Source: Cephaloticoccus sp.
Lineage (GTDB): Bacteria; Verrucomicrobiota; Verrucomicrobiia; Opitutales; Opitutaceae
DNA length: 41,509 bases
NCBI GenBank assembly: GCA_021734075.1
Contig: JAIPJW010000012.1
Span: 1-41,509 of the forward strand
Direction of reading: 5' to 3'
Positions 4,549-30,572 of the stretch are shown here, piece by piece. Numbering within the stretch: the first letter of the stretch is position 1; every line of letters begins with the position of its first letter. The position numbers and the translations under genes are program-made. Under the pieces are notes generated by a model. That model was not told where the DNA came from. It made no database searches and saw nothing but the letters and a program-made list of their open reading frames with translations.

Positions 4549-5385
4549 ATGACCCCCAACCCCGGAGCCCAATTTCGTGCCGCGCTGGCGGCGGAAAAAC
4601 CCCTGCAGATTGCCGGGGCCATCAATGCCTATGCCGCCCTGCTGGCCCGGCAATCCGGCTTCGCGGCCCTATATCTCTCCGGTGCCGGGGTCGCCAATCA
4701 TTCGTTGGGTATTCCCGACATCGGCGACACCACCCTCAACGATGTGGTGACCGATGCCGCGCGCATCACCCGGCGGGTCAACCTGCCCCTGTTGGTTGAT
4801 ATCGACACGGGTTGGGACAATCCGGCGACCGCCGTCAGCTCCCTGGCCGCTGTCGGGGTCGCCGCCGTGCATCTCGAGGATCAGGTTTCCGCCAAACTCT
4901 GCGGCCACCTGCCGGGCAAACAACTCGTTCCCACGGCAGAGATGGTCGCGCGCGTGCGGACCGCGGTGGCGGGCAAACCCAACCCGGACTTTGTCGTCAT
5001 GGCCCGCACGGATGCCGCGGTCGTCGAGGGCGTGCCGGCCGCGATCGCACGGGCCCAAGCCTACGTGACCGCCGGGGCCGACATGATTTTCGCCGAGGCG
5101 CTGCATACCCTCGAAGATTATCAGGCCTTCACCAAGGCGGTGAAGGTTCCGGTGTTGGCCAACCTCACCGAATTTGGCCAGACCCCCTACTTTACCGTCG
5201 GGGAGCTTCGCTCGGTCGGCGTGGCCATGGTGCTGTATCCCCTGGGCGCCTCGCGCGCCGCCGCCGCCGCTTCACTCCAAGTCTATCAAGCCATTCGGCA
5301 GGACGGCACGCAAAAGGACGTCGTCGATCTCATGCAAACCCGGGCCGGGCTCTATCAGACCCTCGGCTACACACCTCCAAAATAA
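4549..5385 (+). CDS. prpB: Methylisocitrate lyase
   Basis: This 278-aa enzyme of the isocitrate lyase/PEP mutase family cleaves 2-methylisocitrate to pyruvate and succinate, the last step of the methylcitrate cycle. The length is right for PrpB and much shorter than isocitrate lyase. The metal-binding DID (Asp84, Asp86) lies in PLLVDIDTGW, and the catalytic loop is KLCGH (Cys118, His120) in SAKLCGHLPGKQLV. It is first in a prpBCD operon, with only 6 nt separating it from prpC. The position next to a methylcitrate synthase and PrpD favours methylisocitrate lyase over other family members such as oxaloacetate decarboxylase-like enzymes. No clear promoter is visible in the 100 nt after the preceding terminator. 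Confidence 0.9.
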   Translation: MTPNPGAQFRAALAAEKPLQIAGAINAYAALLARQSGFAALYLSGAGVANHSLGIPDIGDTTLNDVVTDAARITRRVNLPLLVDIDTGWDNPATAVSSLAAVGVAAVHLEDQVSAKLCGHLPGKQLVPTAEMVARVRTAVAGKPNPDFVVMARTDAAVVEGVPAAIARAQAYVTAGADMIFAEALHTLEDYQAFTKAVKVPVLANLTEFGQTPYFTVGELRSVGVAMVLYPLGASRAAAAASLQVYQAIRQDGTQKDVVDLMQTRAGLYQTLGYTPPK

Positions 5386-5391
5386 ACCGCC

Positions 5392-6561
5392 ATGTCTGAA
5401 ACCCCAACCCCCCCAAAAAAAACCAAGAAGTCCGTCGCGCTCTCCGGCGTGCCGGCCGGCAACACCGCGCTCTGCACGGTGGGCCAATCCGGCAACGACC
5501 TCCACTACTGCGGCTACGATATTGCCGATCTTGCCGCCCAGGCCTGTTTCGAGGAAGTCGCCCATTTGCTCGTGCACGGCCACTTGCCCAATCCAGCCGA
5601 GCTCACGGCCTATCGCACCCGCCTGCAAACGCTGCGCGGTTTGCCTGCACCCCTCCGCACCGTGCTCGAACAAATCCCGGCCGGGGCCCATCCCATGGAT
5701 GTCATGCGCACGGGTTGCTCGATGCTGGGGCATCTGGAACCGGAGAGCCTTCCCGCCACTGGCGGCAATGCCGCCTCCGCTCCCGGCGCTCGATTGATTG
5801 CCGACCGCCTGCTCGCCAGCTTCCCCTCAATGCTGCTTTACTGGCACCATTACGCGACTTCCGGTCGGCGGATTGAGACGCAAACTGATGCCGCATCCAT
5901 CGCCGCGCATTTTCTGCAATTGCTCCACCAGCAAACGCCCACCGCCACCCAGGTGCACGCCTTGGATCGTTCCCTCATTCTCTATGCCGAGCATGAGTTC
6001 AATGCCTCGACCTTTGCGGCGCGCGTCATTGCGGGCACCGGCTCCGATCTCCATTCCTGCATCACCGGGGGCATCGGTGCCCTGCGCGGAGCCAAGCATG
6101 GCGGGGCCAACGAGGTCGCCCTCGCGATCATGCAGCGCTATCGCAACGCCGACGAGGCCGGGGCGGATATTCGCGAACGCGTGGCCCGCAAGGAAATCAT
6201 CATTGGTTTCGGCCATCCCGTTTACACCGTGTCCGACCCGCGCAGTGCCATCATCAAGCGGATTGCGCACGAACTTTCCCGGGAAGCCAACGATCCGGTG
6301 CTTTTCGAGATTGCCGAACGCATCGCCGCCTTCATGTGGAGCGAAAAGAGGATGTTCCCCAATCTCGATTGGTTCAGCGCGGTCGCCTACCAAAGGTTGG
6401 GCGTGCCGATCCTCATGTTTACCCCGCTGTTTGTCATGGCCCGCACCGCCGGTTGGTCCGCCCATGTGATCGAACAGCGCATCGACGGCAAAATCATCCG
6501 ACCTTCCGCCAACTACACCGGTCCCGCCCCACGCCCCTTCCCGCCCCTCGCATCACGATAA
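5392..6561 (+). CDS. prpC: 2-Methylcitrate synthase (citrate synthase family)
   Basis: This 389-aa citrate synthase-fold enzyme is expected to condense propionyl-CoA with oxaloacetate. The catalytic triad is recognisable: His236 in AKHGGANE, His275 in [13 protein letters not shown] and Asp326 in FPNLDWFSA. The motif [10 protein letters not shown] (109-118) and the short length are typical of the 2-methylcitrate synthase/citrate synthase II group. A Pro/Lys-rich stretch of ~12 residues precedes the fold. The location between prpB and prpD is the main reason to prefer methylcitrate over citrate synthase. The enzyme may also have citrate synthase activity, as is common in the family. Confidence 0.9.
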
Positions 6562-6585
6562 TCTTTCTCTTTCTTCTTTCTCCCG

Positions 6586-6650
6586 ATCTTTCTCCGCGGC
6601 CCGACGCGAAAGATTGGACGCAAGAGAAGGACGAAAGATTTAGCGCAAGA
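6586..6650. repeat. Direct and inverted repeats in the prpC-prpD spacer
   Basis: The 96-nt spacer holds two copies of a 19-nt motif, cgaaagattggacgcaaga (6607-6625) and cgaaagatttagcgcaaga (6632-6650), with a 25-nt period. The first can also fold back on upstream sequence (ATCTTTC at 6586-6592 with GAAAGAT at 6608-6614, plus an inner GCG/CGC). It could be a regulator site, an RNA-processing hairpin or a decayed dispersed repeat. Confidence 0.45.
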
Positions 6651-6657
6651 TTTTCCC

Positions 6658-8136
6658 ATGTCCTCCCCCATTTCCAACGTCCGCCCCGCTCCCGATCCAC
6701 TCGTCGCCGCGATCGCTGACTACGTGCTCAACGTCGAAATCACCTCCGCTGAAGCGCTCGACACCGCGCGCTGGTGCCTCGCCGACACCCTGGCCTGCGG
6801 CATCATGGCCCTCGCTTATCCCGCCTGCACCAAACTGCTCGGGCCCATCGTGCCCGGCACCACGATGCAATTTGGCGCCCGCGTCCCCGGCACTCCTTAC
6901 GAACTCGATCCGGTGCAGGCCGCCTTCAACATCGGGGCGATCGTGCGCTGGCTCGATTTCAACGACACCTGGCTCGCGGCCGAGTGGGGTCACCCGTCGG
7001 ATAATCTCGGGGCCATTCTCGCCACCGCTGATTGGTTGAGTCGCAACCAGGCCGCGGACACCCCTCTGGCCGCTTTCGGCACCCCGTTGCCCGCCCGCTC
7101 CCAACCTCTCACCGTTCGCGACGTCCTCGTCGCGATGGTCAAGGCCCACGAAATCCAGGGAGTGCTCGCCCTCGAAAATTCCTTCAACCGCGTCGGGCTA
7201 GATCACGTGCTGCTGGTGCGCATCGCTTCCACGGCCGTGACCACCGCCATGCTGGGGGGCAATCGTGATCAGGTCATCAACGCCGTTTCACACGCGTGGC
7301 TCGATGGCTCTGCCCTTCGCACCTACCGCCATGCGCCCAACACCGGTTCGCGCAAATCCTGGGCGGCCGGTGATGCCACCAGTCGTGCCGTGCGCCTCGC
7401 CCTCATCGCCCTGACCGGCGAAATGGGCTACCCCTCGGTGCTCACCGCCAAGACCTGGGGTTTTCAGGATGTCTCCTTCAAGGGTCAACCGCTGAAACTC
7501 GCCCGACCCTTCGGCAGCTATGTGATGGAAAATGTGCTCTTCAAAATTTCCTTCCCGGCGGAGTTCCACGCCCAGACCGCCGTGGAATGCGCCGTCCAGC
7601 TGCATCCCCTCGTCCAGGATCGTCTCGCGCAGATCGAACGCATCGAACTCACCACGCACGAATCCGCCATTCGCATCATCGACAAGAGTGGACCGCTGCA
7701 CAACCCGGCCGACCGCGACCACTGCCTGCAATACATGACCGCCATCGGCCTGATCTTTGGTGATCTCACCGCCGACCACTACGAGGACAAGGTGGCCGCG
7801 GATCCGCGGATCGACGCCCTGCGGGCCAAAATGACGGTCACCGAGGACAAGGACTATTCGCAGGATTACCTCGACCCCGAAAAACGCTCCATCGCCAATG
7901 CCGTGCAGGTGTTTTTCATGGACGGCACCCACACCGCCAAGGTCACGGTCGAGTATCCCATCGGCCACCGTCGCCGGCGCACCGCAGGCATTCCCCTGCT
8001 GCAAAAAAAGGCCGCGGCGGCCTTTGCCGCTCATTACGGCCAGGCTCGGGCCGCACAACTGCTGCACACCTTTGCCGATCGCAATTCACTTGAAGCCATG
8101 TCGGCAAATGAATTCGTCGCGGCTTTCGTATCCTAG
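6658..8136 (+). CDS. prpD: 2-Methylcitrate dehydratase (MmgE/PrpD family)
   Basis: This 492-aa protein of the MmgE/PrpD family would dehydrate 2-methylcitrate to 2-methylaconitate. Family landmarks are [12 protein letters not shown] near residues 40-50, [19 protein letters not shown] near 100-118, [19 protein letters not shown] near 162-180 and [15 protein letters not shown] near 297-311. The length matches PrpD (about 480-490 aa). It is third in the operon behind a 96-nt spacer with repeats. No acnD or prpF gene is present, so this is the PrpD-type rather than the AcnD/PrpF-type cycle; rehydration of methylaconitate would need an aconitase encoded elsewhere. Confidence 0.92.
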
Positions 8137-21047: not shown

Positions 21048-22013
21048 TCAACTCACGCCGATCAACCAGCCGGCGAGAAACACCAAGACACCGCCGACCA
21101 CGACTTGGAAGATGGCGGAGAGGAGCGGGGTGTCCATGTAGCGCTTGCGGATCCAGGCGATGATGCCCAGTTCGAGGATTACCACCGCAATGGCGATGCT
21201 CGTGGCCAGGTGAAAATCCCTGATCAGGTAAGGCAGCGTGTGCCCGATGCCCCCGATGGTGGTCATCAATCCGCAGACCACGCCGCGCCAGAAGGGGGCC
21301 CCACGGCCGCTCAGTTTGCCATCGTCCGAAAGGGCCTCGGCAAAACCCATGCTGATACCGGCCCCGACCGATGCCGCCAAACCCACCTTGAAAGTCTCGA
21401 GCGTGTTGCCCGTAGCAAACGCCGCGGCAAAGAGGGGCGCCAGCGTGGAAACGGAACCGTCCATCAGGCCCGCCAGGCCCGGCTGCACAAACCGCAGCAC
21501 AAACAATCGCCGCGCGGCCGTGTGTTCCTCGTGGATGCGTCCCTCGGCGGATTGCTGGTCCTCGACTGCCATGGCCGTGGCCTCGTGCACTTGCTCCTCC
21601 TGCGCAAGGTCACCCAACAATTGCCGCACCGCCGCATCCGTCGCGCGCGCCGCCGCGGCCTCATAAAACCGCCGGGCTTCCAACTCCATGATCGCGACCT
21701 CCTCCCGCGCCTTCTCCGGCCGCAATGAGGTGGCCAGCCAAGCCGGTCGCCTTTGCAAAAAACCCTGCACATCCTGGCGACGGATCAGGGGGATGTGTTC
21801 GCCGAATTTCTGCCGGTGCAGTTCAATCAGCCGGTGACGGTGTTCCGACTCCTCCGCCGCCATGGTGCGGAAGAGTTCGGTCGAGGCGGGAAACTCCGCC
21901 TGCAGGCGCTGCGCAAAATCGCGGTATATCCGCGCATCCTCTTCCTCGGCCGTGATGGCCACCGCCAGCAATTGTTCCTCGGTCAAGTCACGGAAATGCA
22001 TGACGCCATCCAA
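21048..22013 (-). CDS. mbfA: Membrane-bound ferritin MbfA (ferritin-like domain plus VIT1/CCC1 domain)
   Basis: This 321-aa fusion has an N-terminal rubrerythrin/ferritin-like four-helix bundle and a C-terminal VIT1/CCC1-type iron or manganese transporter. Di-iron ligands are suggested by EEED (23-26), EESEH (54-58), MELE (109-112) and EEQVH (139-143). The membrane part starts near residue 170 with [21 protein letters not shown] and ends with two strong helices. MbfA in alphaproteobacteria exports iron and protects against iron and peroxide stress. An alternative start at residue 5 (MHFRDL) is possible. It follows the acyl-CoA dehydrogenase by 50 nt on the same strand, perhaps as read-through rather than a functional pairing. 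Confidence 0.9.
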
Positions 22014-22063: not shown

Positions 22064-23242
22064 TCAGGCGACAGGCAGCCGTTTTTCCGCCTCGCGCAGC
22101 AACGTGCGGCTGATAATCAGGCGTTGAATCTCACTGGAACCTTCGCCGATTTCGCACAACCGGGCATCGCGCCACATCCGCTCGACGTGGGTGTCGCGCG
22201 TGTAGCCCCAGCCGCCGCAAATCTGCAGGGCCTGATTGCAGGCGCGCGACGCCGCCTCACTCGCAAAGAGTTTGGCGACCGAGGCCTCCAAACTGAATTT
22301 CTGTCCGCGCTGGTGCAGCACACAGGGTTGCAGGAGCAAGGCCTCGGCCGCCCGCAATTCCACTTCGCAATCCGCCAGTTTGAATTGCAGCGCCTGAAAA
22401 GCCGCGAGGGGCTTGCCGAATTGTTTGCGCGTCAACATGCGTTCGGTGGCGATGGCCACGGCCGCCCGGCCCAGGCCCAGCGCCATCGCGGCAATGCCGA
22501 GCCGGCCCCCATCGAGACAGGCCAAGGCGGCGTGCTGGCCGCGGCCACGCTCGCCGATCAGTTCGCCCCGCACCTTCCTGAGATAAAATTCACTGGTATT
22601 GGAGGCCCGCACTCCGGAGGTTGGCACCTTGCGCACCGGCTCGATGTCGGCGGTGTTGATCCAGAACGCGGAAAACTCCTTCTTCCCTTTTTCGTCCACG
22701 CCGGTCACGGCCATCACCACCATGCGATCGGAGTGCAGCCCCATCGTGATGTAGAGCTTGTGGCCGTTGAGCTCCCACGAATCATCGGGCCGCAGCGTGC
22801 CGGTGGTGGTCACCCCGCCGGTGTCCGAACCCGCTTCCGGCTCGGTCAGGGCCCAGGCCACCATCCAGTCGCCATTGAGAATGCTCGGAAACATCTTCTG
22901 CTTCAGCGCATCGCTGGCGTAGCCCAGGGGGTGACCCACACATAGGGCGTTGTGCGCCGCCATGTTCATGGCAAACGCCCCGCAGTGCCGGGCAATTTCC
23001 TCGATCACGAGGCAATAACACAGCATCGAAAGTTCCTGCCCGCCCACCGCCTTCGGGGCCAACATGCCCATCAGACCCAGCTTGCCCGCCTTGGTAAAAA
23101 GCTCGCGGGGCAATTCCTCCTTTTCCTCCCAGGCCGCGGCATGGGGGGCGATTTCCTTCAGACAGAACGCCGTCGCGGTTTTCAGGAACTCAAGTTCCCG
23201 CGGGGTCAAATAATCATGATAAAGCGAATTGGAGTGTAGCAT
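22064..23242 (-). CDS. Acyl-CoA dehydrogenase
   Basis: This 392-aa FAD enzyme would introduce an alpha-beta double bond into an acyl-CoA. Family text includes [14 protein letters not shown] (about 129-142), [20 protein letters not shown] and the C-terminal [13 protein letters not shown], where Glu367 occupies the catalytic-base position of medium- and short-chain enzymes. Isovaleryl-CoA dehydrogenases lack that Glu (they place the base on another helix), so this is probably not an orthodox LiuA. It is divergently transcribed from the B12-GTPase/mutase operon, with 135 nt between the start codons, suggesting shared control and a common pathway for a branched acyl-CoA. Confidence 0.93.
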
Positions 23243-23377
23243 GGGGGTAATATTTTTCCTGAGCCTACTCGCTGCCGATCAGGTCATCAACCCGCCGGCG
23301 GGCGGACCCGCCGGATTAATGCTTTTGGGTGACCGTTCACAGGTTGCGATCAATGGCAGTCACATCATCTTTAACCC
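23243..23377. promoter_or_regulatory. Divergent control region between acyl-CoA dehydrogenase and split-IcmF operon
   Basis: This 135-nt region must hold promoters for both directions. It contains a perfect 8-bp palindrome, CCGGCGGG-CGGA-CCCGCCGG (23295-23314), placed centrally and not followed by T residues. It is therefore more likely an operator or decayed repeat than a terminator. No regulator gene adjoins it. Confidence 0.45.
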
Positions 23378-24595
23378 ATGGTTGCCAAACCCCTCCGCAC
23401 CATCCCCCCTCTGCGGATTTTAACCGCCGTGCCGATCTGTGATGGCCATGACAGCGCCGTCACCACAATCAACGTGGAACTCGCACGGCATGGGATCGAA
23501 GTCATTTATTTGGGCTACCACCAGTCTGCCTCCGCGATTGCGCGGGCCGCCATCCAAGAGGACGTCAATGCGATCGGCCTCTCCTCCTACAACGGCGGTC
23601 ATATCGTCTTTTTCCGCGAGGTGATCAAACAACTGCGCGAGTCCGGCAACGGCGACATCCCGTTGTTTGGCGGCGGCGGGGGCACCATCACCAAGGCGGA
23701 TGAACGGGTCATGCAACGCCAGGGCACCGATCGCATCTTCTTCGCCGGCACGCCCTTCAATGCCATCATGGCGTTGATCAAAAAAGCGTATGCGCGGGTC
23801 GCCAAACCCAACCGGGCCTTTACGGCTGACCGCGCCCTTGCACGGGCCATCACGCTGGCGGAATGTCGGGCAGGATCGCCGAACCCCGCCGCGAAACGCT
23901 CCAGGAAGGGTCGAGCCAAGGGGTTTGTGCTCGGCGTCGCCGGACCCGGTGGCGCGGGTAAATCCACCCTCATCGACGAACTGACTTCGCGCTTCCTGTC
24001 ACGCGTGCCACGCGGTCGCATTGCGATTCTGGCCAACGACCCGTCGCATCCGGATTCCGGCGGGGCCATCCTGGGCGACCGGGTCTCGGCCATCTATGCG
24101 CAGAACGACCGGGTCTTTTTCCGCTCCCTCGCCACCCGTGGCTCGCTGACCGGGTTGTCCCCCGCCGCCCCCGCCGTCATCGACTTGCTGCGGCAAAGTG
24201 GTGAATTTGACCTGATTCTGGTCGAATCCGTCGGCATCGGCCAGGAGAGCGATCCTTTCGGGATCTACGGCAAAAAGCCCGCGCTCACCGACGCCATGCT
24301 CTTCGTCCTCGCCCCGCATTACGGCGGGCGCATCCAGCTGCAAAAAATTGCGCTGCTCAACGGCGCTGACCTCGTCGCGCTCAACAAGTGCGACCACCCG
24401 ATGGCCCATACCGCCCGGGCCGAGATCCAGGCCCGCCTCGACCAGAACGGCAACGCGCGGCGGCTGCACCCCACCACCGCCGCCCGGCATTACGATCCCG
24501 GGGTTGATGCCCTCTTCTACGCCATCGCTGACCTGGGCAACCTGGTCATCTCCACCGGGGGAGAAAAACCCTGCATGATGGAGGTCCTGGGATGA
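23378..24595 (+). CDS. B12-binding domain fused to MeaB/ArgK-type GTPase (N-terminal half of an IcmF)
   Basis: This 405-aa protein has two domains. Residues ~12-145 are a cobalamin-binding domain with DGHDSA (Asp22, His24 the likely cobalt ligand), LSSYNGGH and the GGGGG loop (98-102). Residues ~180-390 are a P-loop GTPase of the MeaB/MeaI type: GPGGAGKS (189-196), DPSHPDSGGAILGDR, ESVGIGQ (283-289) and NKCD (336-339). This is the domain order of the first half of IcmF, the fused isobutyryl-CoA mutase. The GTPase would load and guard the cofactor of the mutase encoded next. Its stop overlaps the mutase ATG (ATGA), so the two are made together. Confidence 0.9.
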   Translation: MVAKPLRTIPPLRILTAVPICDGHDSAVTTINVELARHGIEVIYLGYHQSASAIARAAIQEDVNAIGLSSYNGGHIVFFREVIKQLRESGNGDIPLFGGGGGTITKADERVMQRQGTDRIFFAGTPFNAIMALIKKAYARVAKPNRAFTADRALARAITLAECRAGSPNPAAKRSRKGRAKGFVLGVAGPGGAGKSTLIDELTSRFLSRVPRGRIAILANDPSHPDSGGAILGDRVSAIYAQNDRVFFRSLATRGSLTGLSPAAPAVIDLLRQSGEFDLILVESVGIGQESDPFGIYGKKPALTDAMLFVLAPHYGGRIQLQKIALLNGADLVALNKCDHPMAHTARAEIQARLDQNGNARRLHPTTAARHYDPGVDALFYAIADLGNLVISTGGEKPCMMEVLG

Positions 24596-26346
24596 GCCAG
24601 CTTGGAAAAATCGCGGACTCCGTCGACGCCTACAACACCCACGTCGCGGCCGAGGTGCAACGGGCCCGCACCAACAAAAAATTCGCGGCCGGACTCCGGG
24701 CCCGTTGGGCCAAGCTGCAGGCCGCCGTTGACTGGACGGAATCCCCGGCGGGCACCCGCCTGCCCCGCCTTGCCCTGCCCGACACCGATGAGCCCGGTGC
24801 CATTGCTGCTTACCTCCTCGGCCAGGGCCTGCCTGGAGAGTTTCCGTTTGCGACCGCGGCCTACCCTGAAATGTATCTCGATCGCGACGCCGCCCCCGGT
24901 GGCGCCAACGAGGAACCCATGCGACTGTTTGCCGGGCTCGGTCTCGCCGAGGACACCAACGCCCGTTTCAAATACCTCAACCGCCACCAGAAAAGCCTGC
25001 GCCTCTCCACCGCCTTCGATGGCCCGACCCTCTACGGCCTCGACTCGGATCATGCCGGGGTCCTCGGCAAGGTAGGCGAGGGCGGTGTGGCCATCGACAC
25101 GGTGGACGACATGGCGCGGCTGTTTGCCGGCTTCGACCTGACCCGGCCGGATGCGTCGGTTTCCATGACGATGAACGCGCCGGCGCCGGTCATCCTCGCG
25201 ATGTTCATCGCGGCGGCGAAACGCCGCTTCGGCCCGGATTGTGTGGGCCAACTGCGCGGCACCATCCAGGCCGACATGCTCAAGGAGGTGCAGGCCCAAA
25301 ATGAAGTCATCTTTCCCATCGAGGCCTCCCTGCGCTTTCTCTGTGACATGATCGAATGGGGCGTGGCCCACCTGCCCAAGTGGTATCCCGTCTCCATCTC
25401 CGGCTATCACATCGCGGAGGCCGGTGCGACCCCCGTGCAGCAGGCCGCCTTCACCCTCTCCAATGGTTTCACCTATGCCGAATTGCTCCGGCAACGCGGC
25501 GCCGACATCGATGCGGTGGCGCCGCGTTTCTCCTTCTTCCTCGATTGCGGACTCGACGTGGAATACCTCGTCCTCGGTCGCGTCTGCCGCCGTATCTGGG
25601 CGATCGGCATGCGTGATGCCTTTGGCGCCGGCCCCAAGGCCCAGCGCCTGAAACTGCACACCCAGACCTCCGGCCGCTCTCTGATCGCCGCCGAGTTTCA
25701 AAACAACCTCACCCGCACCGCGGTCGAGCTGATGATCGCATATCTGAATTACACGAATTCCTGCCATTCGAATTCCGCGGATGAACCGTTCACCACGCCC
25801 ACGGAACATTATGCCCGCCTCGCCTCACACGGTCAGTCCATCATCCTCGAGGAGTCCGGCGTATTTAAGCACATGATGAACATGTTCGGTGGGGCACCCG
25901 GCCTCCTGGCCCTCGAGCGTCAGGTCGAGCAGGGCATCCTCGCCTCGTTTCGCGAGATGGATACCCTTGGCGGGGTCATTGCCGCCGTGGAGCAACGCTA
26001 CCACCGCAGCAAGATCCAGGAGGCGGGTCACCGTCTGGAAACACAGATCTACTCCGGCGCCCGGCCGATCATCGGTCTCAACAAATACCGGTCCGACGAG
26101 CCGTTGCCCAACGTGCCGCTCGCCCGCACGGCCCCGCGCAAGCAACGCCTGCAGGTCGAACGCCTCAAGGCCTTCAAAAAGAAATACGCCAGGAAAGCCC
26201 CCGCGGCCCTGCAGCGCTTGGAAAACGTCGCTCGCGCCGGGGGCAACGTCTTCGCCGAACTTGTCACCACCGTCGAGGTCTGCTCCCTCGGCCAGATCAC
26301 CGCCTGCCTGACCAACGTCGTTGGCAAGTTCCGCCCCATGGTTTAA
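24592..26346 (+). CDS. Coenzyme B12-dependent acyl-CoA mutase large subunit (isobutyryl-CoA mutase type)
   Basis: This 584-aa TIM-barrel mutase subunit lacks its own B12 domain. Family text includes LPGEFPFATAAYPEM (80-94), RLSTAFDGPTLYGLDSD (137-153), SVSMTMNAPAPV and SISGYHIAEAGA (268-279; His273). At the two positions that set substrate choice it has Phe113 (in MRLFAGLG) and Gln236 (ten residues after TIQ226), the pair known from isobutyryl-CoA mutase/IcmF. Methylmalonyl-CoA mutase has Tyr/Arg there. A carboxylated substrate is therefore unlikely; isobutyryl-CoA/butyryl-CoA or isovaleryl-CoA/pivalyl-CoA are the known alternatives. The N-terminus (LGKIADSVDAYNTHV) aligns with the linker that follows the GTPase in IcmF. 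Confidence 0.9.
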   Translation: MSQLGKIADSVDAYNTHVAAEVQRARTNKKFAAGLRARWAKLQAAVDWTESPAGTRLPRLALPDTDEPGAIAAYLLGQGLPGEFPFATAAYPEMYLDRDAAPGGANEEPMRLFAGLGLAEDTNARFKYLNRHQKSLRLSTAFDGPTLYGLDSDHAGVLGKVGEGGVAIDTVDDMARLFAGFDLTRPDASVSMTMNAPAPVILAMFIAAAKRRFGPDCVGQLRGTIQADMLKEVQAQNEVIFPIEASLRFLCDMIEWGVAHLPKWYPVSISGYHIAEAGATPVQQAAFTLSNGFTYAELLRQRGADIDAVAPRFSFFLDCGLDVEYLVLGRVCRRIWAIGMRDAFGAGPKAQRLKLHTQTSGRSLIAAEFQNNLTRTAVELMIAYLNYTNSCHSNSADEPFTTPTEHYARLASHGQSIILEESGVFKHMMNMFGGAPGLLALERQVEQGILASFREMDTLGGVIAAVEQRYHRSKIQEAGHRLETQIYSGARPIIGLNKYRSDEPLPNVPLARTAPRKQRLQVERLKAFKKKYARKAPAALQRLENVARAGGNVFAELVTTVEVCSLGQITACLTNVVGKFRPMV

Positions 26347-26353
26347 ATACCCC

Positions 26354-28009
26354 ATGACCTCAACCCCGAGCAAATCCCCCATCAATCCCCTGCTCACCCG
26401 CTGTCAGGAAATCGCCCAGGAGGAAACCGTCTTGCGCGAGGGCGGGGGCAAGGCCGGCCAGGATCGCCAACACAAGCACGGCCGGCTTTTCGTGCGCGAA
26501 CGCATCACCGAACTGATCGATGATTCCGATGAGTTCCTGGAGATCGGCCTGTGGGCAGCCCACGGCATGTATGCGGAATGGGGCGCCTTTCCCGGGGCGG
26601 GCGTGGTCACGGGCATCGCCAACATTTCCGGCCATCCCTGCATGATCATCGCCAATGACGCCACCGTGAAGGCCGGCGCCTTTGTTCCCATGACCTGCAA
26701 GAAGGTGCTCCGCGCCCAGCGCATGGCCTTCGAGTGCAACCTGCCCCTGGTTTATCTGGTCGATTCCGCCGGCGTCTTTCTGCCCATGCAGGACGAGATC
26801 TTCCCCGACGAGGACGACTTCGGCCGTATCTTCCGCAACAACGCGGTGATCTCGGCCGCAGGCATTCCGCAATACGCCGCCATCATGGGCAACTGCGTGG
26901 CCGGCGGCGCCTACCTGCCCGTGCTCTGCGACAAGATTCTCATGACCGAGGGGAGCGGACTTTATCTCGCCGGGCCGCAACTCGTGAAGGCGGCGATCGG
27001 ACAGGAAACCGACACCGAGACCCTGGGCGGCGCCGCCATGCACGCCGAAATTTCCGGCACAGTCGATTTCAAGGAAAAGGATGATCCCGCCGCCATCAAA
27101 CGCCTGCGCTCGTTGGTGGGATTGCTGCCGGAAGAGACTGGAGGAGCGGGTTTACCCCGCGATGAATCGCCAGAAAATGCCTCGCGGCATAAAGCCGCTC
27201 CTACCACCGAACCCGAATTTCCCGCGGGGAAACTTTACGAGCTCGTCAGCGTGGACGGGCGCAAGGAATACGACGTGCGCGACCTGATCAAGTGCCTCGT
27301 CGACGCCGGCTCGCTGGATGAATACAAGGCCGACTACGGCAAATCCATCGTCTGCACCTTCGCCCGGCTCGGCGGCCGTGCCATCGGGATTGTCGCCAAT
27401 CAACGCCAACGTGTGCACTCCAAGCAGACCGGTCTGCAGATCCACGGGGTCATCTATGCCGACAGTGCCGACAAGGCCGCCCGGTTCATCATGGACTGCA
27501 ACCATACGCGGGTGCCCCTGCTGTTCCTGCAGGACGTGTCCGGTTTCATGGTCGGCAAGGATGCCGAGCAAAGCGGGATCATTCGCGCCGGAGCCAAGAT
27601 GGTGAACGCATTGAGCAACTCGACCGTGCCCAAGATCACGGTCATCACCGGCGGGTCCTTCGGGGCCGGTAACTATGCGATGTGCGGCAAGGCCTTTGAT
27701 CCGCGCTTCATCTTTTCCTGGCCGCACGGCAAATACGCGGTGATGGGCGCCGCCCAGGCCAGCGATGTCGTCTTCAACATTCTTTCCCGCAGTTCCAAGG
27801 ACAAGACCCCGGCGGAACTCGACGCCCTGCGTGAACAGGTGAAGCAGGGTTACGTCGAGCAAACCGACATTCGTTACGGGGCCGCACGGGGCTGGGTGGA
27901 TGCGATCATCCAGCCCCACGACACGCGCAGCATCCTGTTGCGTGCCTTCGCCTGCGCCTGTCGCCCCACGCCCAAGGCCGCCTTCCACACCGGGGTCATT
28001 CAAGTTTAA
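26354..28009 (+). CDS. Acyl-CoA carboxylase beta subunit, methylcrotonyl/geranyl-CoA type
   Basis: This 551-aa carboxyltransferase subunit of a biotin-dependent acyl-CoA carboxylase is closer to MCC/GCC beta subunits (LiuB, AtuC) than to propionyl-CoA carboxylase. The evidence is VYLVDSAGVFLPMQDEIFPD followed by DFGRIFRNNAVIS, and GNCVAGGAYLPVL. The C-terminal half has GFMVGKDAEQSGIIRAGAKM and FGAGNYAMCGKAF. The start at 26354 is preferred over the ATG at 26321, which lies inside the mutase gene. Residues ~264-285 are encoded by a REP element inserted in frame, in the linker between the two carboxyltransferase halves. No biotin carboxylase/biotin carrier alpha subunit is in the window; it must be supplied from elsewhere. 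Confidence 0.92.
   Translation: MTSTPSKSPINPLLTRCQEIAQEETVLREGGGKAGQDRQHKHGRLFVRERITELIDDSDEFLEIGLWAAHGMYAEWGAFPGAGVVTGIANISGHPCMIIANDATVKAGAFVPMTCKKVLRAQRMAFECNLPLVYLVDSAGVFLPMQDEIFPDEDDFGRIFRNNAVISAAGIPQYAAIMGNCVAGGAYLPVLCDKILMTEGSGLYLAGPQLVKAAIGQETDTETLGGAAMHAEISGTVDFKEKDDPAAIKRLRSLVGLLPEETGGAGLPRDESPENASRHKAAPTTEPEFPAGKLYELVSVDGRKEYDVRDLIKCLVDAGSLDEYKADYGKSIVCTFARLGGRAIGIVANQRQRVHSKQTGLQIHGVIYADSADKAARFIMDCNHTRVPLLFLQDVSGFMVGKDAEQSGIIRAGAKMVNALSNSTVPKITVITGGSFGAGNYAMCGKAFDPRFIFSWPHGKYAVMGAAQASDVVFNILSRSSKDKTPAELDALREQVKQGYVEQTDIRYGAARGWVDAIIQPHDTRSILLRAFACACRPTPKAAFHTGVIQV
27143..27204. repeat. REP-like palindromic element inside a coding sequence
   Basis: The ~62-bp element is bounded by GGAGCGG and CCGCTCC. 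It contains two inner hairpins, GCGGG-TTTA-CCCCGC and GCGGC-ATAAA-GCCGC, separated by gatgaatcgccagaaaatgc. It reads through in frame as about 21 residues (GAGLPRDESPENASRHKAAP) within the carboxylase gene. Its outline is that of a dispersed intergenic REP, but of a different family from the RAYT-flanking units. Confidence 0.85.
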
Positions 28010-28014
28010 ATAAC

Positions 28015-28080
28015 CGAAGCGCAAAGGCACCACGTGCAAAGTTCCCGTCACAATTCATCCTTCGCGTCTTTGCCCCTTCG
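28015..28080. repeat. Imperfect inverted repeat, probable dispersed element before atuA
   Basis: CGAAGCGCAAAGGCAC (28015-28030) is matched in inverted form by GCGTCTTTGCCCCTTCG (28064-28080) around ~33 nt of lower-GC sequence. It fills nearly all of the 83-nt spacer between the carboxylase and AtuA genes. The look is of a small non-autonomous repeat rather than a terminator, as there is no T run. Confidence 0.55.
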
Positions 28081-28092
28081 CGCTTAATCCGC

Positions 28093-29460
28093 ATGCCTCG
28101 TCCGCTCAAAATCGCCAATGCCTCCGGCTTCTGGGGTGACCAACCCGAGGCCGCCGCACGGCTGGTCGCCGCCCAACCCGATCTGGATTACCTGACCCTC
28201 GACTACCTCGCCGAGGTCTCGCTCTCGATCATGGCCATCGTGCGGGCCAAGGATCCCGCGGCCGGTTACGCGCGCGATTTCGTGGAGGTGCTCGCCTCCC
28301 TGGTGCCGTTTTACCAGGCGGGCGGCAAAACCCGGATTGTCACCAATGCCGGCGGGCTGGATCCGCCGGCCTGCGGCGCAGCGTGCCTCGCGGCCTTGCA
28401 AGAAGCCGGGCTCACCCAACTCAAGGTCGCTGTGGTGACGGGAGACGACGTGCTTGCAACCCTCAAGGCCGGGGGCGGGACGGATTTCCCCAATCTCGAA
28501 ACCCAGCAGCCACTCAAGGAGATCGCCGCCCGCTTGGTCACCGCCAATGCCTACGTGGGGGCGGAGGGGATTGCGGCGGCGCTGCGGGCCGGTGCGGATA
28601 TTGTGATCACCGGCCGGGTGGCGGATCCCTCACTCACCGTCGGCCCCTGCGTGGCGCATTTCGCCTGGGCCCCGACAGACTATGATCGCCTGGCCGGTGC
28701 CACCATAGCCGGCCATTTGATTGAGTGCGGCACCCAGTGCTGCGGCGGCTTCTCCACCGATTGGCTGGAACTGCCCGAGCACACGGATATCGGTTTTCCC
28801 ATTGTGGAAATCTCAGCCGATGGCTCCTGTGTCGTCACCAAACCGGCAGGCACCGGCGGCGCCGTCACGGTGCCCACGGTCAAGGAGCAGCTCCTCTATG
28901 AAATCGGTGATCCGGGCAACTACCTGTCCCCCGATGTCCGCGTGTCGCTGCTGACCATCACGGTGGAACCGGTCGGGAAAAATCGCGTGCGCATTTCCGG
29001 CGCCAGCGGGCAAGCTCCCACGGACACCTGCAAGGTTTCCGCCACCTATCGCGACGGCTACAAGGCCCACGGCATGCTCACCATTTTTGGCCATGATGCG
29101 GTGCGGAAAGCGCACGCCGCCGGGGAAGGCATCCTGCACAAGCTCAAGGCGCGCGGCTGCAACTTCCGCGAAACTCTGGTCGAGTGTCTGGGCACCGGGG
29201 CCAGTGTGCGGGGCATTGTCAGCCGGATGAGTGACACTCATCTGGTCGAAACCGTGCTGCGTGTGAGCGTGGCCGCCGATGAAAAGGAGCCGGTTGCGCG
29301 CTTCACCCGTGAGCTTGCCCCGCTCGTCACCTGCGGTCCGCAGGGCGTCACCGGCTATGCGAGCGGCCGGCCGAAAGTGATGCCCATCTTTGGCTACTGG
29401 CCCTGCCTGATTGCGAAAACCCAAGTCCAATCCACCTTCAAGCTGTTGAACCCCTCATGA
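28093..29460 (+). CDS. atuA: AtuA family protein (acyclic terpene utilisation, DUF1446)
   Basis: This 455-aa protein of the AtuA/DUF1446 family has a biochemical role that is not established; the family is named for its need in citronellol/geraniol degradation by Pseudomonas. Landmarks are IANASGFWGDQPEAAARLV at the N-terminus, LDYLTLDYLAEVSLSIM (about 31-47), TNAGGLDPPACG (about 83-94), ADIVITGRVADPSLTVGP and ECGTQCCGGF. The gene overlaps the next one by 4 nt (ATGA). It sits between a GCC/MCC-type carboxylase and an enoyl-CoA hydratase, which matches atu-like clusters, but the associated B12 mutase is not part of the classical atu pathway. Confidence 0.88.
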   Translation: MPRPLKIANASGFWGDQPEAAARLVAAQPDLDYLTLDYLAEVSLSIMAIVRAKDPAAGYARDFVEVLASLVPFYQAGGKTRIVTNAGGLDPPACGAACLAALQEAGLTQLKVAVVTGDDVLATLKAGGGTDFPNLETQQPLKEIAARLVTANAYVGAEGIAAALRAGADIVITGRVADPSLTVGPCVAHFAWAPTDYDRLAGATIAGHLIECGTQCCGGFSTDWLELPEHTDIGFPIVEISADGSCVVTKPAGTGGAVTVPTVKEQLLYEIGDPGNYLSPDVRVSLLTITVEPVGKNRVRISGASGQAPTDTCKVSATYRDGYKAHGMLTIFGHDAVRKAHAAGEGILHKLKARGCNFRETLVECLGTGASVRGIVSRMSDTHLVETVLRVSVAADEKEPVARFTRELAPLVTCGPQGVTGYASGRPKVMPIFGYWPCLIAKTQVQSTFKLLNPS

Positions 29461-29774
29461 TTCCGCTCCGTAAAATCGCCCACGCCCGCAGCGGCGACAA
29501 GGGCAACTCCGCCAATGTGGCGGTGTTCGCCCGCACCCCGGCCGCTTACCAGTGGCTGCGCGCCAATCTGACGGCCGCGATGCTGGAAAACTATTTCAAG
29601 CCCCTCGGCGTTGGCGCCGTCACCCGTTACGACGTGCCCAATCTCGAGGCATTGAACTTCCTCCTCCCCGCCGTCCTCGGCGGCGGCGGCAGCCGCTCAC
29701 TGCGCATTGACGCCCAGGGCAAAACCCTCGGGATGGCCCTGCTCGAAATGCCCGTGGACTATCCCGTGACCTGA
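29457..29774 (+). CDS. AtuA-like ferredoxin-fold small protein
   Basis: This 105-aa protein is homologous to the C-terminal extension found on many AtuA proteins. Its opening, IPLRKIAHARSGDKGNSANV, is characteristic, as are VTRYDVPNLEALNFLLPA and the Gly-rich GGGGSRSLRID. Here it is a separate gene whose ATG overlaps the atuA stop (ATGA), so the two probably act as subunits of one complex. No cysteines or catalytic residues are evident; the fold name describes shape only and no iron-sulfur cluster is implied. Confidence 0.82.
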   Translation: MIPLRKIAHARSGDKGNSANVAVFARTPAAYQWLRANLTAAMLENYFKPLGVGAVTRYDVPNLEALNFLLPAVLGGGGSRSLRIDAQGKTLGMALLEMPVDYPVT

Positions 29775-29789
29775 CCTTGCTCAACCATC

Positions 29790-30572
29790 ATGACCAACCC
29801 TCCCCTCCTCGTCGCCACGGCCGGTCCGGTCACCACGCTCACGCTGAACCGGCCCGACAAACGCAACGCACTGAACATTGAACTGCTCGAGGCCCTGGTC
29901 GCGGCCGTGGAAACCGCCGACGCGGATGCCAGTCAACGCGTGCTGGTGCTGAAGGGCGCGGGCACGGTCTTTTGTTCCGGGCTGGACCTGGCCGAGGCGC
30001 AGATCGAGGAACGCGCCCACCGCTCTGCTGATCTCGTGGCGCGCGGCCTGGCGGTCATGAGCCACTCGCGTCTGGTCACAATTGCAGCGGTGCAGGGCGC
30101 GGCGATCGCCGGGGGGGCGGGCCTGATGAGTGCCTGTGACTTCACTGTGGCCACCCGCAGTGCCAAGTTTGGCTACCCGGAAGTGCGCCGCGGCTTGGTG
30201 GCGGGGTTGATCATGACTTTTCTGCGCCGGCAACTGCGCGAGCGCGACATCCGCGAGCTGCTCATCCTGGGCAAACCCTTTGATGCCGCCCACGCCCATG
30301 CCATCGGTTTGCTCAACCGGGTCGTGGCGGACGAGGCCGGGCTCGAGCTTGAGGTGCAAGCGCTGATCGCCTCGATCCTGCAGGGTGCGCCCGGAGCCAT
30401 TGCCCACACGAAACAACTGCTTGCCGATCTGTGGCCGCAAACCGTGCAACACGATGTCGACCACGCCCTGGCTTTCCATCTGCAGGCGCGCAATTCCGCG
30501 GAGGCCCGGGATGGCATTGCGGCCTTTCATGCCAAACGCGCGCCGCCATGGGCGCCACCCGCGAATCCTTGA
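29790..30572 (+). CDS. Enoyl-CoA hydratase/isomerase family protein
   Basis: This 260-aa crotonase-fold enzyme is the last gene of the operon. The oxyanion hole is formed by CSGLDL (62-67) and AIAGGAGL (105-112). Of the two glutamates of classical enoyl-CoA hydratase, only the second is present (Glu131 in FGYPEV); the first position is Gly111. Some crotonase members with altered glutamates, such as isomerases, lyases or glutaconyl-CoA hydratases, work on other acyl-CoAs, so the reaction is uncertain. In atu/liu pathways the matching enzyme hydrates (isohexenyl- or methyl-)glutaconyl-CoA, the product of the carboxylase. It converges on the next gene with only 9 nt between stops. Confidence 0.88.
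   Translation: MTNPPLLVATAGPVTTLTLNRPDKRNALNIELLEALVAAVETADADASQRVLVLKGAGTVFCSGLDLAEAQIEERAHRSADLVARGLAVMSHSRLVTIAAVQGAAIAGGAGLMSACDFTVATRSAKFGYPEVRRGLVAGLIMTFLRRQLRERDIRELLILGKPFDAAHAHAIGLLNRVVADEAGLELEVQALIASILQGAPGAIAHTKQLLADLWPQTVQHDVDHALAFHLQARNSAEARDGIAAFHAKRAPPWAPPANP

Follow-up and report, generated by a model that had tools for sequence, protein, structure and literature searches.

A split B12-dependent mutase beside AtuA in Opitutaceae: a candidate valine and leucine catabolic island with a proposed stand-in for HMG-CoA lyase

Why should a B12-dependent acyl-CoA mutase be encoded among genes of the Atu (acyclic terpene utilisation) and Liu (leucine/isovalerate) types? The question is raised by positions 22,064-30,572 of a 41,509-nucleotide stretch of DNA from Cephaloticoccus sp. 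(Opitutaceae, Verrucomicrobiota; contig JAIPJW010000012.1 of assembly GCA_021734075.1), which we call the window; it is contig 168 of the host assembly (G000; 3.5 Mb, 212 contigs, 91.3% complete). A preliminary description had suggested that the mutase could supply the neighboring carboxylase in a single pathway. Our analysis points instead to an island for branched-chain acyl-CoA breakdown in which two arms lie side by side, one for valine and one for leucine, a reading that we regard as probable, if with some reserve. It is based on gene content, recurrence, separability of the gene sets, two mutase residues, a carboxylase alpha subunit that was not found, and one fold match of AtuA. The enzyme families are known; their combination is unusual and patchy. 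The part of greatest interest is the proposal that AtuA stands in for 3-hydroxy-3-methylglutaryl-CoA (HMG-CoA) lyase.

The preliminary description had listed a dehydrogenase, a split isobutyryl-CoA mutase of the fused type (IcmF), a carboxylase beta subunit, AtuA with its small partner, and a hydratase. All are present as seven open reading frames (ORFs), each above the Pfam curated cut-off. The acyl-CoA dehydrogenase gene (Acyl-CoA_dh; 22064..23242, minus strand) is divergent. On the plus strand lie the N-terminal half of IcmF, with B12-binding and MeaB-like G-protein domains (23378..24595), the C-terminal half with the mutase barrel (MM_CoA_mutase; 24592..26346), a carboxyltransferase of the 3-methylcrotonyl-CoA carboxylase (MCC) beta type (Carboxyl_trans; 26354..28009), AtuA (PF07287; 28093..29460), its small partner, a separate gene here (AtuA_ferredoxin; 29457..29774), and a crotonase (ECH_1; 29790..30572). 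The carboxyltransferase ORF opens at a TTG at 26321, and the start at 26354 was picked by codon score. Because the mutase halves, and likewise AtuA and its partner, overlap by 4 bases, the six plus-strand genes are likely to form one operon.

The substrates and products that we infer would be arranged as follows. In the valine arm, the split IcmF would turn isobutyryl-CoA into n-butyryl-CoA; a short-chain acyl-CoA dehydrogenase, together with a FadJ-like enzyme whose gene is on contig 14 of the host assembly, would then oxidize the latter towards acetoacetyl-CoA. In the leucine arm, isovaleryl-CoA would be oxidized to 3-methylcrotonyl-CoA, which the carboxyltransferase would carboxylate by drawing biotin-CO2 from AccB/AccC; the crotonase, as a putative 3-methylglutaconyl-CoA hydratase, would hydrate the product to HMG-CoA, and AtuA with its small partner would cleave HMG-CoA to acetate and acetoacetyl-CoA. 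A single dehydrogenase would be shared between the arms. The crotonase matched 72 NCBIfam families, none of the best 25 at its cut-off.

The last carbon-cutting step of leucine breakdown is usually carried out by HMG-CoA lyase. We propose, at about even confidence, that AtuA (as large subunit) and its small partner constitute a second, unrelated HMG-CoA-cleaving enzyme, which would split its substrate on the other side to give acetate and acetoacetyl-CoA and would displace HMG-CoA lyase in the leucine breakdown of some Opitutaceae, in combination with a B12-dependent valine route. The window protein matches Pfam AtuA with 499 bits over model positions 2-436 of 437, and a plain sequence search against the PDB gave no match up to E 10. 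When a structure model built from 9 sequences was submitted to Foldseek, the sole match below E 0.001 was citramalate lyase with ADP and pyruvate (PDB 9evf), a molecule that carries both names, AtuA family protein and citramalate lyase subunit A. For this low-confidence model, with a mean predicted local distance difference test (pLDDT) of 55, the match has E 7.3e-15, prob 1.00, a template modeling (TM) score of 0.46, and a root-mean-square deviation (rmsd) of 12.3; the next match is at E 0.035. A profile search with AtuA recovers CmlA weakly (E 0.012). By chemical analogy, conversion of citramalate to acetate and pyruvate would be the same kind of cleavage as conversion of HMG-CoA to acetate and acetoacetyl-CoA. 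The small partner has no solved relative at E < 1, and its model is of low confidence (pLDDT 55).

HMG-CoA lyase was surveyed through PF00682 in 13 genomes, with products read at some loci and 5 candidates run through NCBIfam. Four AtuA genomes, G014, G023, G072, and G168 (all 100% complete), have no HMG-CoA lyase as judged by length and opening residues; their PF00682 proteins, typed without family models and at one G072 locus by frame length only, resemble isopropylmalate/citramalate synthases, pyruvate carboxylase, an oxaloacetate-decarboxylase-like protein, or aldolase. G128, which belongs to the genus of G168, has the same flanking genes and a gap of 25 bases between carboxyltransferase and crotonase, with no AtuA pair between them; AtuA is absent from its genome search, and an HMG-CoA lyase (284 bits) is encoded elsewhere. 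This same-genus pair differs by precisely an exchange of AtuA for HMG-CoA lyase. The AtuA matches do not include G067, where crotonase and carboxyltransferase flank a gene of the HMG-CoA lyase family (219 bits, under the cut-off). In eight genomes (G000, G014, G023, G029, G072, G168, G128, and G067) a single locus holds both carboxyltransferase and crotonase, and each of these genomes has AtuA or a lyase, a count that leaves out G210 and G300 (no lyase search) and G035 (contig ends before AtuA).

Two simpler regularities were considered. AtuA and HMG-CoA lyase are not strictly complementary, as G000 and G029 have both and G213, G225, and G372 neither. The oxoacid CoA-transferase family PF01144 is at best a weak marker of acetoacetate activation, being found in the lyase genomes G128 and G067 but equally in the AtuA genomes G168 and G072. 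It is above cut-off in 8 of 16 genomes (these four and G210, G213, G225, and G372), not over cut-off in G014, G023, G029, G035, G300, G387, and G397, and sub-cut-off in the host.

What does the mutase act on? Its order of B12-binding domain, G-protein domain, and mutase barrel is that of IcmF, split over two ORFs, and the halves cover consecutive segments, 3-393 (257 bits) and 505-1073 (527 bits), of the 1076-position NCBIfam IcmF model; neither reaches the cut-off of 1500. Among solved structures, IcmF is the best match of the barrel at 405 bits, ahead of 2-hydroxyisobutyryl-CoA mutase at 307 and methylmalonyl-CoA mutases at 261-277. Phe113 and Gln236 of the barrel align to residues 618 and 762 of a 1113-residue IcmF chain; with 20 tag residues subtracted, we take these to be the specificity residues F598 and Q742 of CmIcmF. 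In 2-hydroxyisobutyryl-CoA mutase, the residues that align with them are Ile and Gln. The Phe/Gln pair is identical in 39 of 39 aligned mutase rows (window counted twice). Because both aligned substrate positions are of the IcmF type, the mutase is predicted to interconvert isobutyryl-CoA and butyryl-CoA.

A scan of genomes with the mutase gave 31 loci, 30 of them close and one at 34% identity; the 30 relatives at ≥ 70% identity are metagenome assemblies of Opitutaceae, Opitutia/Opitutae, or other Verrucomicrobia. Neighbors were counted over 38 mutase loci (the window, the 30 close ones, and 7 further), each count covering only loci with enough sequence on the relevant side. Genes were called with a codon-usage caller for GC-rich DNA, of which a 914-residue call in L189 is an artefact. 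The preliminary description had suggested such a survey for constant partners. The B12/G-protein gene is one, directly upstream of the mutase in 34/34 loci; the carboxyltransferase (17/31) and AtuA (9/29) are not. The dehydrogenase is near the mutase in 15/32 loci, and the small partner and crotonase in 9/29 each. All ten loci with AtuA (one too short for the count) hold the carboxyltransferase, dehydrogenase, and small partner. The mixture of a B12 mutase with atu/liu-type genes and no alpha subunit, as first described, thus recurs in relatives, and the expected conservation of the cluster holds in Opitutaceae to the extent of a patchy recurrence. At the phylum scale, the mutase clade (E about 1e-288 or better) was present in 14 of 387 sampled genomes, 11 from the same family with the host included, and 17 of the 387 match the mutase at E 1e-100.

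Several loci show variations. In L054, L057, L083, and L097 the carboxyltransferase follows the mutase, and neither dehydrogenase nor AtuA nor crotonase was detected in the vicinity. In L091 a 101-residue carboxyltransferase piece, not counted as a carboxyltransferase, follows the mutase; this remnant looks like gene loss. Two small genes (75 and 133 residues), by eye ribbon-helix-helix antitoxin-like and PIN-type toxin-like, lie between mutase and carboxyltransferase in L087 and after the mutase in L074.

The mutase and the carboxyltransferase/AtuA set do not always travel together. When 16 genomes were searched for the carboxyltransferase (threshold E 1e-40), 14 had a match; the exceptions, G387 (97% complete) and G397 (99% complete), both carry the mutase. 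Conversely, dehydrogenase, carboxyltransferase, AtuA, small partner, and crotonase are grouped in G072 (one contig), which has no mutase match at E 1e-100. On the single contig of G168, about 0.9 Mb separates the mutase (2.09 Mb) from carboxyltransferase-AtuA-small partner-crotonase (3.02 Mb), and G067, G210, and G300 carry carboxyltransferase, crotonase, and a 2-oxoacid dehydrogenase fusion (below) on contigs other than that of the mutase. Genomes that hold the sets apart in these ways argue for two modules.

The fusion just mentioned is a recurrent mutase neighbor of 1047 residues that joins E1-alpha, E1-beta, lipoyl, and E2 portions of a 2-oxoacid dehydrogenase (L067:1962-5105, minus strand, by domain search); it is below NCBIfam cut-offs and presumably specific for branched-chain substrates. 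It lies ≤ 10 kb downstream of the mutase in 7/21 loci with enough sequence, and a FadJ-like hydratase-dehydrogenase (below cut-off) is downstream in 6/21. The host genome holds both on contig 14, the fusion at G000:C14:17704-20805. Among 57 relatives, the fusion is present in 5/5 mutase genomes and 9/52 others (hypergeometric 4.8e-4, kinship ignored). Since the fusion and the FadJ-like gene are downstream in about a third of loci, we read valine and leucine breakdown as lying side by side. Outside the phylum, 422 plasmid records have a mutase match, and 3 of them were inspected. An annotated icmF of Priestia megaterium is accompanied by thiolase, 3-hydroxybutyryl-CoA dehydrogenase, and acyl-CoA dehydrogenases, that of Ideonella by 3-hydroxybutyryl-CoA dehydrogenase and acyl-CoA dehydrogenases, and a Persicobacter homologue has butyrate kinase at a distance of about 4 kb. 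For a syntroph, PMC5017805 proposes that isobutyrate is used by way of a mutase and beta-oxidation.

Nearest to the window dehydrogenase among solved structures are unspecified and short-chain/butyryl-CoA dehydrogenases (best 277 bits), with 193-200 bits for chains named isovaleryl-CoA dehydrogenase. Its C-terminal GEGSSE motif is in 19 of 20 aligned rows (window twice); the 20th has no residues there. The carboxyltransferase scores 440 bits with an annotated AccD1, 397-420 with chains named MCC beta, 414 with one propionyl-CoA carboxylase (PCC) beta, 332 with geranyl-CoA carboxylase (GCC) beta, and about 180-265 with other full-length PCC beta chains. By these scores it is nearer to MCC beta than to GCC beta (AtuC); it reaches no NCBIfam cut-off.

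From where could biotin-CO2 be supplied? The absence of a biotin alpha subunit, noted in the preliminary description, extends from the locus to the host genome (91.3% complete), where the search it recommended found none. MCC-alpha was found in 0/12 genomes by a PF02785 search, which yielded only 12 AccC-size and 5 pyruvate-carboxylase-size proteins; the large one of the host also carries a PF00682 match. Biotin-carrier-size proteins are encoded within about 1.5 kb of AccC genes. Since no MCC-alpha was found in 12/12 genomes, it is plausible that housekeeping AccB/AccC could supply biotin-CO2 to the carboxyltransferase. We also inspected 7 AtuA neighborhoods from 161 plasmid records with an AtuA match. 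Five have a carboxyltransferase near AtuA: four, from alphaproteobacteria, add separate biotin carboxylase and biotin-carrier genes, and that of Rhodococcus has AtuA, carboxyltransferase, and a biotin carboxylase gene. Those of Tistrella and Microvirga have no carboxyltransferase annotated near AtuA.

A number of observations weigh against the two-arm reading, and some of them favor an alternative. The mutase is patchy even among close kin: 0/8 same-genus relatives have it at clade identity (three genomes are < 90% complete), and two of them, G006 and G008, have mutases at 39-40% identity only. The dehydrogenase looks to be of the short-chain, not the isovaleryl, type. The AtuA fold match comes from a model of low confidence, with the rmsd and TM score given above. 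PF01144 is distributed in a mixed manner, being above cut-off in 2/6 AtuA genomes. G213, G225, and G372 keep mutase and carboxyltransferase together without the remaining genes; they have neither AtuA nor HMG-CoA lyase (judged by the size of PF00682 matches) and no nearby crotonase, and their carboxyltransferase might serve the mutase product. Finally, an HMG-CoA lyase family gene is present on contig 4 of the host (261 bits, cut-off 246) and in G029 (244.9 bits with a shortened start). The lyase described as missing is therefore missing from the locus, not from the genome, and because it lies elsewhere in G000 and G029, AtuA need not cleave HMG-CoA in these two.

These lyase genes suggest an alternative that keeps the valine arm, lets the leucine arm end with an HMG-CoA lyase encoded elsewhere, and gives AtuA another role, for example on a terpenoid-derived 3-hydroxy-3-alkylglutaryl-CoA; PMC4847356 does list AtuA for a terpene intermediate. 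We consider it unlikely, as the four complete AtuA genomes have no lyase recognizable by length and opening residues, the carboxyltransferase is MCC-like rather than GCC-like, and the lyase gene of the host sits in other company. In the contig 4 cluster (L155:3230-8334), the lyase family gene is accompanied by a CaiB-type CoA-transferase, a homoisocitrate/isocitrate-dehydrogenase-like gene, and a pair of genes that by eye resemble aconitase/LeuCD; G029 repeats at least the first three, lyase gene, CoA-transferase, and isocitrate/homoisocitrate-type dehydrogenase.

The linear pathway originally suggested, in which a quaternary or iso-branched acyl-CoA would be rearranged by the mutase (pivalyl-CoA to isovaleryl-CoA) and passed on to the dehydrogenase, carboxylase, hydratase, and AtuA, draws on how tightly the mutase, carboxyltransferase, and AtuA genes are packed, on the pairing of the first two without AtuA in G213, G225, and G372, and on activity of IcmF with pivalyl-CoA/isovaleryl-CoA as well, reported in PMC10481361. 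Against it are the IcmF-type Phe/Gln in every aligned relative, the occurrence in G387 and G397 of a mutase but no match to the carboxyltransferase, the leucine-type set without a mutase match in G072, and the fusion and FadJ-like neighbors of the mutase. Because the modules occur apart, we do not place it first and judge it decidedly improbable. Least probable of all, to our mind, is a carboxyltransferase that is a decarboxylase, or that acts on the straight-chain mutase product in an unrecognized C4/C5 dicarboxyl-CoA route: the 0/12 tally for the alpha subunit, the AtuA- and lyase-free pairs of G213, G225, and G372, and a top NCBIfam match to methylmalonyl-CoA decarboxylase alpha (338 bits, far under the cut-off of 999), itself a point against the two-arm reading, would favor it, but the best solved relatives are of the MCC-beta type, glutaconyl-CoA decarboxylases reach 149-160 bits and a hypothetical methylmalonyl-CoA decarboxylase alpha 239, and AccC-size and biotin-carrier-size proteins are present.

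If the two-arm reading is right, it gives a testable leucine-breakdown role to a family that has so far been linked to terpenes and, through a single solved structure, to citramalate. The reading would also explain how bacteria without HMG-CoA lyase could complete leucine breakdown, with the re-activation of acetoacetate saved, and would mean that a B12-dependent valine shortcut is packaged with leucine genes in Verrucomicrobiota. Among the matches listed in a limited literature search of titles and abstract openings, there was no report of AtuA replacing HMG-CoA lyase in leucine breakdown, nor of such a cluster in Opitutaceae.

Two other features of the window were recorded. The methylcitrate cycle genes prpB-prpC-prpD (4549..8136, plus strand; all three above NCBIfam cut-off) are 15 kb upstream, and prpD is upstream of the mutase in 11/28 loci. 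At 21048-22013 (minus strand), a rubrerythrin-like domain is fused to a VIT-type membrane domain, the VIT match being below cut-off.

The locus can be compared with four known systems. With the Liu leucine/isovalerate pathway it shares an acyl-CoA dehydrogenase, an MCC-beta-like carboxyltransferase, and a crotonase; it differs in that no MCC-alpha was found in the genome, the locus has an AtuA pair and not an adjacent HMG-CoA lyase, and the dehydrogenase looks to be of short-chain type. AtuA, carboxyltransferase, dehydrogenase, and crotonase recall the Atu pathway, whereas here the carboxyltransferase is nearer to MCC than to GCC, AtuA is in two genes, and the cluster is without a partner for AtuF, AtuB/G, or AtuH. 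IcmF (PDB 4xc6, 8ssl), the top-scoring solved relative of the window mutase, has the same domains in the same order and the same Phe/Gln; it is fused, whereas the window has two genes with a 4-base overlap, cut between G domain and barrel. Citramalate lyase CmlA (PDB 9erq, 9evf) is matched by the low-confidence AtuA model over its length, and AtuA is proposed to perform the same kind of cleavage, although at 16% identity, with a weak profile match and another substrate expected.

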